In this document: positions 8,443 through 18,057 of the stretch, one piece after another
Layout of the letters: each line of letters opens with the position of its first letter
Position numbering within the stretch: position 1 is the stretch's first letter
Origin: Methanomicrobiales archaeon
GTDB taxonomy: Archaea; Halobacteriota; Methanomicrobia; Methanomicrobiales; JACTUA01
Length of the DNA stretch: 21,311 nt
Assembly: GCA_028678965.1 (NCBI GenBank)
Contig: JAJRCM010000087.1
Location: 1 to 21,311, forward strand
Direction: 5' to 3'
Translations under genes and position numbers: made by a program
The notes under the pieces: model-generated
What the model was told of the DNA's origin: nothing
Database searches by the model: none
What the model saw: the letters and a program-made list of their open reading frames with translations, nothing else

Positions 8443-9624
8443 TTAAAAGTCCGTTATCACCCGGAACTGGTCGATATCCTCCTTGCTCAGCTGCTCGAGA
8501 AACTCCTCAGCAGCGTGATGAACATCCTTGCTCGCGGTTATAGCCCGGCCGACGACGAGAATGTCCGCCCCTGCCTTGAGGGCGGTCTTCACCACATCGA
8601 CCTTGATACCTCCGGCTGTTGCGATGAGAATCTTCTTTCCTGCCGCCTTCCTGATGGCCTCGATATCGCCCCACCGATGGTCAGATCCCTCGGCATCGAT
8701 GGCACGGTGCAACTCCACAATGTCCGGTTTGATAGTCAGTTGCTTGACCACCTTGGCGGGATCTGGCACATTAAGCATATCCACAATGGAATAGATCCCG
8801 GTCTTCTTTGCCTCATTGATTGCCTTCTCCATGGTCTCTTTCGGTGCAAGGCCGGAGATCACCACCGCATCGGCAGAGGCATCAGAGGCCATACGGGCTT
8901 CCAGATTACCGGTGTCCAGGATCTTCAGATCGGCAATGATGAATGCATTGGGGCGGAGCTTTCGGAGCTGCCCGATTACCTCCACTCCGAACTTCTTGAT
9001 CATGGGTGTTCCCGCTTCGATGATCAGGTGATCATTATCGGGAAGAGACACGATAACCGAGGTGATACGGTTCATGTCCACGAGATCCATGGCCACTTGC
9101 AGGTAGGGAGGATCCCAGAGGCGCTGGACCTTGAAGCCCATGATGGGGTGGGCCTGGCGATCCTTTTCGTAAAGGAGAGTAGCCGCGTCCGGAAATTTAT
9201 CGAAAGCACGCCGGATGGCGAGCTTCATCGCCCCGTAGTTGTAGCGGTAGAGCTTATTGTAGTCATTCGCAGTGGGGTGAATGAACACACTGGCGAGGAT
9301 GACAAGCTGCTCAATGTCCGCGTCTTTAAAAATGCCCTCCTCCACTGAGTCCGCGACAGCCTTTGCCACCGCTGCTTGTACAGGGCCGAAAACCTGGTTG
9401 ACCTGTGTTTCTTTGCGGATGGTCACCTTGGGTATCACCAAAGTCGCCGGCTTGGCGAGAAGGTTCGGTCTTACCACCGCAAGGAGGGGGGTATGACCCT
9501 TGGAGAGCTGGGAGAGGGCATTGGCGAATGCCGTCCCTGCAGGTCCGTTCTTGTCCCCGATGATCAGATCGATGTGTGCAAGCTCTGCACTATCCCCGAC
9601 GAGTGCTTCTCCCACAAGATACAT
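8443..9624 (-). CDS. fae-hps: Bifunctional formaldehyde-activating enzyme / 3-hexulose-6-phosphate synthase
   Basis: Fused enzyme of 393 residues. The N-terminal Fae domain (about 1-160) condenses formaldehyde with tetrahydromethanopterin; its catalytic histidine H17 is in place in ELAHIDLIIGDKNGPAG, and the family stretch VFIHPTANDYNKLY is at 113-126. The C-terminal Hps domain (about 165-393), an OMP-decarboxylase-fold TIM barrel, shows IIEAGTPMIKKFG (201-213), ADLKILDTG (231-239) and ATAGGIK. In methanogens the fusion runs mainly toward ribulose-5-phosphate supply, releasing formaldehyde that Fae captures. The ATG at 9624 gives MYLVGEALVGD, the usual start, with weak GGAA ten bases upstream. 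tRNA-Trp ends 59 bases upstream on the same strand with a T6 run between. Confidence 0.96.
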   Translation of the reverse strand: MYLVGEALVGDSAELAHIDLIIGDKNGPAGTAFANALSQLSKGHTPLLAVVRPNLLAKPATLVIPKVTIRKETQVNQVFGPVQAAVAKAVADSVEEGIFKDADIEQLVILASVFIHPTANDYNKLYRYNYGAMKLAIRRAFDKFPDAATLLYEKDRQAHPIMGFKVQRLWDPPYLQVAMDLVDMNRITSVIVSLPDNDHLIIEAGTPMIKKFGVEVIGQLRKLRPNAFIIADLKILDTGNLEARMASDASADAVVISGLAPKETMEKAINEAKKTGIYSIVDMLNVPDPAKVVKQLTIKPDIVELHRAIDAEGSDHRWGDIEAIRKAAGKKILIATAGGIKVDVVKTALKAGADILVVGRAITASKDVHHAAEEFLEQLSKEDIDQFRVITDF

Positions 9625-9683: not shown

Positions 9684-9833
9684 TGGGGCTGGTGAGATTT
9701 GAACTCACGATCGACGGGTCTCTCCGACATGCGTCAGTGCTCCAACGGATCATCACCTATTCAGAAGACCCATTGTTCATCATACGCAAACACCGCTGGA
9801 GCCCGTCGCCATTCCTGACTAGGCCACAGCCCC
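9684..9833 (-). tRNA. trnW: tRNA-Trp (CCA) with a 76-base intron
   Basis: The acceptor arms GGGGCTG and CAGCCCC pair fully, the discriminator is A, the D arm is GCC…GGC, and the T arm is GTGAG-TTCAAAT-CTCAC. The anticodon stem ACGGG/CCCGT closes a loop CUCCAGA after intron removal, giving anticodon CCA (9799-9797). The intron lies between positions 37 and 38; the mature tRNA is 74 bases without an encoded CCA end. The splice junctions form a bulge-helix-bulge: CUCC pairs with GGAG, with 3-base bulges AGC and AGA cut after AG. An intron after position 37 is the classic site for euryarchaeal tRNA-Trp. Confidence 0.96.
9720..9795 (-). ncRNA. tRNA-Trp intron acting as a box C/D 2'-O-methylation guide
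   Basis: The intron carries box C ATGATGA (9783-9777), box D' CTGA (9764-9761), box C' GTGATGA (9756-9750) and box D CTGA (9737-9734). A terminal stem GCGT/ACGC abuts boxes C and D. Upstream of box D, the segment reading TTGGAGC pairs with positions 31-37 of the same tRNA, and the fifth base before the box faces C34. Upstream of box D', GGGTCT pairs with AGACCC (36-41), and the fifth base faces C39. By the box-plus-five rule it should direct Cm34 and Cm39. Haloarchaeal and Pyrococcus tRNA-Trp introns are known to do this at 34 and 39. Box and pairing positions are seen directly; methylation is inferred. Confidence 0.92.
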
Positions 9834-16317: not shown

Positions 16318-16376
16318 TGGAGTAATCCTAAACCGCCACATTTTTCTGGTTACCATGGTGATATTCGGTGATCTGC

Positions 16377-17006
16377 ATGGGAATCAGGGAGTGGGTGGTA
16401 CCCAGGGATAAGATTTTTTTTGATCTCTTTGAACGCCAGGCTTCGGTGGTGATGCGGGCAGCCGATGAATTGGTGAAGCTGGTGGAGGATTACCGCGATG
16501 TAAAAACCGGTGTGAAACAGATTGAGTCACTCGAACATGAGGGGGATCGTCTCGCTCATGAAATTTACGAACAATTGAACATCACCTTTATCACTCCCTT
16601 AGAACCGCACGAGATCTCCCACCTAGCATCAGCGATGGATGACATCCTCGACTACATTGACGGTACCACCCAGATGATGTACAATTACAGCATCACCGAG
16701 ACCGATTCCCACATGCGGGAACTCGCGAAATTAATCCAGCTTTCTGTCTCGGAGCTCACCGAGGCAGTGCAGCACATCCGGTCCATCAAAGACCCACGAG
16801 AGATTGAGGGGCGGTGTATCGAAGTGAACCGGCTGGAAAATCTTGCCGATGACGTACTGGCCCATGCCATCATCGACCTGTTCAAAACTGATGACGCCAT
16901 CACTATCATCAAACTCAAAGATGTCTACCAGTACCTGGAAGTTGCTACGGACAAATGCGAGGATGCGGCCAACGTCCTTTCTGATATTGCCATACGACAT
17001 TCGTGA
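16377..17006 (+). CDS. DUF47 / PhoU-like protein, second copy
   Basis: Paralogue of the protein at 14513, also 209 residues. Both metal-binding motifs look intact: IESLEHEGDRLAHEI (49-63) and NRLENLADDVLAHAI (151-165). LEPHEI and AIIDLFKTDDAITIIKLKDVY are family-typical. The ATG at 16377 is chosen because GGTGA ends five bases before it; a GTG at 16368 in the same frame overlaps that ribosome site. The next gene, the second PiT transporter, starts 25 bases after its stop, and the pair should be one transcript. Expected role: regulator or partner of the adjacent phosphate transporter at the membrane face. Confidence 0.9.
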   Translation: MGIREWVVPRDKIFFDLFERQASVVMRAADELVKLVEDYRDVKTGVKQIESLEHEGDRLAHEIYEQLNITFITPLEPHEISHLASAMDDILDYIDGTTQMMYNYSITETDSHMRELAKLIQLSVSELTEAVQHIRSIKDPREIEGRCIEVNRLENLADDVLAHAIIDLFKTDDAITIIKLKDVYQYLEVATDKCEDAANVLSDIAIRHS

Positions 17007-17030
17007 TGCTGATTTTCGCTGGAGCCCCCC

Positions 17031-18057
17031 ATGGTACCCTCTTCACCCATTTTTATCGGTGCCATCATCGGCGTTGCGCTCATCTTTGATTTTACCAACG
17101 GGTTCCATGACTCGGCAAACTCCATCTCCACCATTGTATCAACAAAGGTTCTGTCCCCCAAGAGGGCGGTAGTATTTGCAGCCTTTTTTAATCTTATCGC
17201 AGCATTCGGATTCGGTGTCGCTGTGGCGAGTACCATCAGCAAGATTATCAAACTGGACATTGTTGCGACCGAGAGTATTCCCGTCATCGTTCTCGGTGCT
17301 CTCCTGGGGGCGATCAGCTGGAACCTGATCACCTGGTACTTCGGACTCCCCACCTCCTCCTCCCATGCCCTCATTGGCGGGCTCATAGGAGCAGGGATCG
17401 CGGCAGCAGGGCTTCTCTGCCGTCAAGCTCGATACCATCCAGCTGGTAGCAACCTTCATGATCATCTCACCGATTATCGGTCTGTCCTGCGGATTTCTGT
17501 TCATGGCAGTGGTCCTCTGGCTCACACGAGGAGCTCACCGGACCTTGGCTGAGCAGAATTTCCGTCGCCTCCAGCTCCTCTCCGCTGCCTCTTACAGCTT
17601 CAGCCACGGGACAAACGATGCCCAGAAGACCATGGGGATCATCGTCCCTCTCCTGTTCAGTATCGGGTACTTCGGGCCTGCAGTAGATACCAATCAACTG
17701 CCGGTCCCGTTCTGGGTGATTCTCATCGCCCATGCTGCGATAGCTCTGGGCACCCTGACCGGAGGATGGCGAATCGTCAAGACCATGGGGTATCGGATCA
17801 CCAACCTCCGCCCGGTTCACGGTTTCTCGGCTGAAACCGCGGGTGCTGCGACCATCATCGGTGCGTCTGTCATCGGTATCCCAGTCATCACGACACACAT
17901 CATCTGCTCATCGATCATAGGTGTTGGATCAACGATGGGGTTCAGCACGGTAAAATGGGGAGTGGCACGGAGTATCCTCTGGGCATGGATCCTCACCATC
18001 CCCCTGAGCGCACTCATCGGGTACCTCTCCTTCACCCTGATAAGGATCTTTCTCTGA
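17031..18057 (+). pseudogene. PiT-family phosphate transporter, frame broken by one base
   Basis: Canonical archaeal PiT transporter, about 341 residues once the frame is restored. Signature loops are conserved: NGFHDSANSISTIVSTK (23-39) in the first half, HGTNDAQKTMGII in the second, plus GLPTSSSHALIGG and the matching PVITTHII. The frame starting at 17031 runs correctly to GAGIAAAG, then shifts; the right continuation GFSAVKLDTIQLVATFMII is one frame over. Removing one G from GGG at 17409-17411 restores a full protein. Everything on either side is well preserved, so the shift is either very recent, a base-calling error, or a recoding site. Coupled to the DUF47 gene upstream; its end is one base from that of nth on the other strand. 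Confidence 0.85.

Follow-up and report, generated by a model that had tools for sequence, protein, structure and literature searches.

The intron of the tRNA-Trp gene is described as a box C/D guide RNA in Haloferax volcanii ‘and other Euryarchaeota’ (PMC11408192), a system that is also covered by PMC4090602 and PMC7994747. According to all three of these sources the guide acts in trans, supplied either by a second pre-tRNA or by the intron after its excision. Deletion of the intron is reported to abolish the methylation of both C34 and U39 (PMC11408192) and to leave growth under standard conditions unaffected (PMC11408192, PMC7714728), and a table in PMC6313347 credits the entry ‘Cm34 and Um39 (or Cm39)’ to the intron box C/D guide. 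For the tRNA-Trp of Pyrococcus furiosus methylation has been predicted at C32, C34 and C39; the same report gives the putative positions it lists as undetected, beyond Cm34, Am38 and m22Gm26 in some tRNAs (PMC7668247). The intron is also known as a circle, of 103 nt in H. volcanii (PMC7714728), and the circular tRNA-Trp intron, found in all organisms reanalysed by PMC12558985, is ranked there among the most consistent archaeal circular RNAs.

Here we analyse a tRNA-Trp intron in a stretch of 21,311 nt of DNA, referred to as the window, that covers positions 1 to 21,311 of contig JAJRCM010000087.1 of a Methanomicrobiales archaeon (assembly GCA_028678965.1). A preliminary description, made from the letters alone, had read the intron as a complete box C/D guide with its own tRNA as the target and had added that the principle was known from other archaea, as the reviews cited above indeed describe. 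Very probably the intron belongs to the tRNA-Trp intron type of box C/D sRNA, with two guides that would direct methylation of C34 and C39 of the unspliced pre-tRNA-Trp. The family is a known one and the locus is ordinary within it; the arrangement has long been known in archaea.

The tRNA-Trp gene and its surroundings

The pre-tRNA-Trp(CCA) gene occupies 9833-9684 on the minus strand. Exon 1 lies at 9833-9796 and exon 2 at 9719-9684. The Rfam tRNA model matches the gene with 50.3 bits; the acceptor stem has seven pairs and the anticodon stem and T-stem five each. The gene was missed by ARAGORN as run on the window. Between positions 37 and 38 of the tRNA lies an intron of 76 nt (9795-9720, minus strand). 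The window belongs to Methanomicrobiales, and the host assembly amounts to 1.2 Mb in 180 contigs, with a completeness rated at 77.75%. A scan for promoters and terminators, of which the promoter part covers bacterial-type sites only, gave no result.

On the same strand, 59 bases downstream of the tRNA, sits a gene for Fae fused to an OMPdecase/HUMPS-family domain (8443-9624, minus strand); judged by eye, the apparent start of the Fae-fusion gene also lies 3' of the tRNA at loci L244, L247 and L249. Elsewhere in the window DUF47 (PhoU_div) and PHO4 phosphate-transporter genes occur as a pair twice, the second time at 16368-18057. The PHO4 transporter of this second pair is broken into two overlapping frames (17031-17552 and 17458-18057) that cover profile parts 1-105 and 123-350, the result of either a frameshift or an assembly error.

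Box C/D architecture of the intron

All four boxes of an archaeal box C/D sRNA are present in the intron on the minus strand and in the expected order: box C (AUGAUGA, 9783-9777), box D' (CUGA, 9764-9761), box C' (GUGAUGA, 9756-9750) and box D (CUGA, 9737-9734). A terminal stem, with the 5' arm UGCG at 9788-9785 and the 3' arm CGCA at 9733-9730, adjoins boxes C and D. The anatomy given in the preliminary description for the 76-base intron, that is the four boxes and the terminal stem, is thereby borne out base for base. When the intron was dinucleotide-shuffled 20,000 times, the ordered four-box layout never appeared. Furthermore, the intron (9720-9795) belongs to the Rfam family sR3 (RF01133), which it matches at 9787-9732 over model positions 1-55 of 55 with 61.4 bits, the gathering score being 41.

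The D' guide spacer ACAAUGGGUCUU (9765-9776, minus strand) forms seven of seven pairs with tRNA positions 36-42, and the D guide spacer UCCGUUGGAGCA (9738-9749, minus strand) forms seven of seven with positions 31-37. The fifth base before box D' is the G at 9769, opposite C39 (9718), and the fifth before box D is the G at 9742, opposite C34 (9799), where the coordinates of C34 and C39 are derived arithmetically from those of the gene and the intron. In each case, therefore, a target faces the fifth base before the box, as had been proposed from the letters, and by complementarity the targets are positions 34 and 39, as in Haloferax. The match over six to seven positions that had been described for each guide, with a wobble in addition for the D guide, can be made more exact: all seven bases of G31-G37 are paired with the D guide, with a U-G wobble at G37, and this pairing runs three pairs further, into intron bases +1 to +3. 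For the D' guide, the last two bases of the intron, AG, take the place of A36 and G37 in the precursor.

Pairing of the guides alone is weak evidence. When the composition-shuffled spacers were scored over guide bases 2-8, seven of seven pairs were reached somewhere on the tRNA in 8,300 (D') and 9,932 (D) of 100,000 trials. Such figures, 8-10% per guide, are what one would cite in arguing that a structured tRNA intron resembles a C/D RNA by chance, an idea that is almost certainly wrong in view of the Rfam score, the box layout and the conservation of the element in Methanomicrobiales. Since shuffled spacers often reach seven pairs, the case for a guide RNA rests on conservation; the decisive evidence is the Rfam sR3 match together with the comparison with relatives.

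The splice site overlaps the target of one guide. A canonical bulge-helix-bulge can form, in which CUCC (tRNA positions 32-35, 9798-9801, minus strand), part of the target of the D guide, pairs with GGAG (9722-9725, minus strand) in the central helix, with the bulges AG^C and AG^A. A fold in which the canonical bulges are forced open has an energy of -58.7 kcal/mol, which is 3.3 above the free minimum of -62.0, and the bulge-helix-bulge site of the preliminary description is upheld in its canonical form. The guide thus lies, as in Haloferax, inside a 37/38 intron of tRNA-Trp(CCA) that has a bulge-helix-bulge motif. The fold of the whole pre-tRNA-Trp is better than 200 of 200 shuffles (z -3.21). 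The isolated intron folds no better than its shuffles (z -1.26; 27 of 200 at least as good), and the strength of that fold was dropped as evidence.

Conservation in Methanomicrobiales

The sR3 family matches 175 of 199 sampled Methanomicrobiales genomes, the host genome included, with 159 of the 199 above the Rfam cut-off; in good-quality genomes of the order the figure is 128 of 132. Phylum-wide, 195 of 392 sampled genomes are above the cut-off and 268 match at a loose E-value of 0.1, an inflated number since two bacterial controls match as well at that value. Methanosarcina acetivorans and Methanocaldococcus jannaschii, 2 of the 14 control genomes, also match, one of them above the cut-off. 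The preliminary description had thought the occurrence in a methanogen worthy of note; given the 175 matching genomes of the order and the two methanogen controls, this claim of novelty was abandoned, and the guide is already in print for ‘other Euryarchaeota’ (PMC11408192).

Distinct pre-tRNA-Trp sequences with introns of at least 50 nt were then compared. Both guides pair with their targets at the threshold used (D at least 6/7, D' at least 5/7, next to any [CT]NGA box) in 203 of the 205, a proportion that overstates guide retention because 172 of the 205 were found only by guide-dependent searches, namely through the Rfam family or the D-guide pattern. A further 3 were found by both routes and 30 only by exon patterns, which were run mostly on genomes picked for being without a strong sR3 match; 29 of these 30 pass the threshold and one fails. 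The set was confined to introns free of N, acceptor stems of at least six pairs, the anticodon loops CTCCAG and CTCCAA, and copies that do not end at a contig edge. Exact CUGA is found at both D and D' in 175 of the 203 passing sequences; a D or D' box is altered in L244, which equals L301, and in L245, which equals L300.

Covariation of guides and targets

The alignment of relatives' introns that the preliminary description had suggested as a check came out in its favour, as the guides follow their targets. Across the 203 sequences, base 39 and D' guide base 5 are C-G in 177, U-A in 21 and U-G in 5; base 41 and D' base 7 are C-G in 171, A-U in 27, U-G in 3 and unpaired in 2; base 31 and D base 2 are G-C in 176, A-U in 23 and unpaired in 4. 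This covariation reflects few independent events in many sequences, mainly one lineage split between U39 and C39. An exon pattern that makes no use of the guides found all 26 sequences with U39, which we take to be haloarchaeal by their likeness to the H. volcanii tRNA. In 5 of these 26 (L259, L260, L261/L262, L263/L264 and L265) a G faces U39, giving a wobble at the methylation target. The terminal stem covaries too: in relatives, the 4-bp stem is paired in 536 of 608 cells when read in the register of the window, and in 99, 121 and 159 of 608 when one arm is slid by one base.

The guides also pair with bases of the intron itself. D base 9 is paired with intron base +1 in all 203 sequences (C-G 176, A-U 27); in the 177 introns without U39 it pairs with +1 in 177 and with mature base 38 in 1, failing there in 176 (one of them N). 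D' base 3 is paired with the last base of the intron in 199 of 203 and fails in 4; in all 26 sequences with U39 it pairs with that base, and never with mature base 37. With D base 9 and D' base 3 thus paired to intron bases, it is the unspliced precursor that the guides fit.

Complementarity between the two guides

Over a stretch of 9 bp the guides can also pair with one another: D' bases 3-11 face D bases 6-14, of which the final two are part of box C'. Through this helix the free intron can close on itself. At least nine contiguous guide-guide pairs are found in 125 of 203 introns versus 14.6% of controls in which the upstream part of the D' spacer was shuffled, a comparison to which no probability is attached as the sequences are related. 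In a fixed register, the number of the 177 introns without U39 that retain a given pair ranges, over the nine pairs, from 147 to 177. Furthermore, where tRNA base 43 is C (21 introns), D' base 9 finds no partner in the tRNA, so its conservation in those 21 is unexplained by the target.

The conserved helix might work like a switch, setting the order of the two methylations and coupling both to the precursor before splicing. We hold this proposal to be tentative and rather unlikely: much of the helix follows from bases that the targets already fix, and the isolated intron, as noted above, does not fold better than its shuffles. To judge by the title of one cited work, something like such a switch may already be described for H. 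volcanii; a keyword look-up of the literature for guide-guide pairing, of limited reach and saying little, gave no match.

Altered and lost guides

Several relatives depart from the common pattern. In G076, a Methanomicrobiales genome of 96% completeness, the intron at L247 is 96 nt long and retains the exon side of the splice site, and it is without recognisable boxes or guides, a natural case of guide loss. Box D is CGGA and C' is altered in G044 (same genus, 62% complete); in G008 (same family, 99% complete) it is box D' that is CGGA, again with an altered C', and there is a long insert. The C box and the D' guide tail are altered in G184, and L056/L127, from one genome, have one extra U before D', which would shift the predicted target from C39 to A38. 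Intronless genes account for 16 of the loci found by exon patterns; at L282 and L283 an intron is present, of 23 and 31 nt, and carries no guides. In G053 (Methanomicrobiales, 99% complete) a tRNA-Trp was not found by the exon pattern, nor among 38 of the 47 tRNA-model matches of that genome.

From this it appears that the tRNA-Trp intron guide is common, yet dispensable over evolution, because there are relatives with lost guides or without the intron. The preliminary description had named loss of boxes or guides in close relatives that keep the intron as the observation that would speak against it; this does occur, in a few genomes (G076, G044 and G008), and it does not overturn the function proposed.

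It is possible to read these losses as a sign that what preserves the C/D element is chiefly a role in splicing or in the stability of the RNA, with methylation as a dispensable by-product. The guideless introns of G076, with its splice-site exons retained, and of L282 and L283 are consistent with this, as are the reports that H. volcanii can do without its intron under standard conditions and that the circular tRNA-Trp intron is among the most consistent of archaeal circular RNAs. Splicing alone, however, needs no match between a guide and a target base, and the guides track their target bases across lineages; moreover, guides are absent in just 1 of the 205 distinct introns of at least 50 nt. 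We consider this explanation improbable.

The position of the irregularities bears on another alternative, that only the D guide and C34 are active while the D' guide and C39 are vestigial. D' is the irregular side in G008 (the box), in G184 (the guide tail) and in L056/L127 (the insertion), but in G044 the irregularity is at D and not at D'. Moreover, D' base 5 and base 39 are paired throughout the 203 sequences (198 Watson-Crick, 5 G-U), the U39-A pairs included, and Um39 is reported for H. volcanii; a vestigial D' guide is thus unlikely.

Some further variants were seen in passing. The stretch from D' to the D spacer, which includes C', is expanded to 61-126 nt in 9 distinct introns (L031, L032, L033, L034, L036, L116, L124, L166 and L245), several of them on contigs labelled Methanoregula. 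L034 and L124, the latter labelled Methanoregula, Lac Pavin, also have a second tRNA-Trp copy, on the minus strand and some 1.2 kb away from the intact one, whose 5' exon and anticodon are decayed; its C/D guide block of 51 nt has stayed intact in both genomes. Selection on this copy was considered and set aside: comparison of the two genomes shows 4 differences over 199 bases beyond the block and 0 over the 51 bases within it, which is not significant (about 0.4, by proportion). L144, labelled Candidatus Bathyarchaeota JdFR-04, has a tRNA-Trp intron guide of the type found in Archaeoglobus-labelled loci, and its contig is possibly misbinned.

Re-homing of the guide as a free sRNA after loss of the intron was also considered. 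The pattern TGATGAN{3,16}TGGAGYNCTGA matched 1 of 27 genomes, of which 16 have an intronless tRNA-Trp, and this sole match (L302, genome G222) is apparently inside protein-coding sequence; at the sensitivity of this pattern, which degenerate guides would escape, there is no sign of re-homing.

Discussion

The preferred reading remains that the intron is a dual-guide sRNA that would act on its precursor. Of the proteins that such a pathway calls for, those of the RNP and the splicing endonuclease were looked for in the assembly, and genes for all of them occur there: fibrillarin (189.8 bits) is adjacent to Nop (117.2 bits) on contig C97, L7Ae-family genes number two, and the tRNA splicing endonuclease is of the two-domain kind. 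By homology with the described systems, L7Ae, Nop5 and fibrillarin would assemble on the C/D and C'/D' motifs of the intron, and on the unspliced pre-tRNA-Trp 2'-O-methylation would be directed to C34 by the D guide and to C39 by the D' guide. The expression ‘aimed at its own tRNA’ used in the preliminary description holds for the complementarity to C34 and C39; it does not hold if taken to mean action in cis, as the reviews report action in trans, and here too the guide at work on a given pre-tRNA would probably sit in a second pre-tRNA molecule or in an intron already excised. The splicing endonuclease would cut the bulge-helix-bulge site, and the excised intron would then be ligated, probably to a 76-nt circle.

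A self-targeting tRNA-Trp intron guide is the rule in Methanomicrobiales and recurs across the phylum. The natural variants found among the relatives, that is the swaps between C39 and U39, the guide losses and the one-base shift, could be used to test the rule that the target faces the fifth base before the box, and the reasons for which the intron persists.

Like the H. volcanii system as described, the locus has an intron in tRNA-Trp(CCA), a dual guide to positions 34 and 39 and bulge-helix-bulge splicing; it differs in that position 39 is C in the tRNA of the window and U in that of H. volcanii, and in that the intron is 76 nt long compared with the 103 reported there. With regard to Rfam RF01133 (sR3) the match extends over the whole model, nothing notable differs and the window adds one more member. 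Archaeal box C/D sRNAs are mostly directed at rRNA and lie outside introns. The guide in the window resembles them in its boxes C, D', C' and D and its two 12-nt spacers, and is unlike the typical ones in being intronic and aimed at the tRNA that hosts it.
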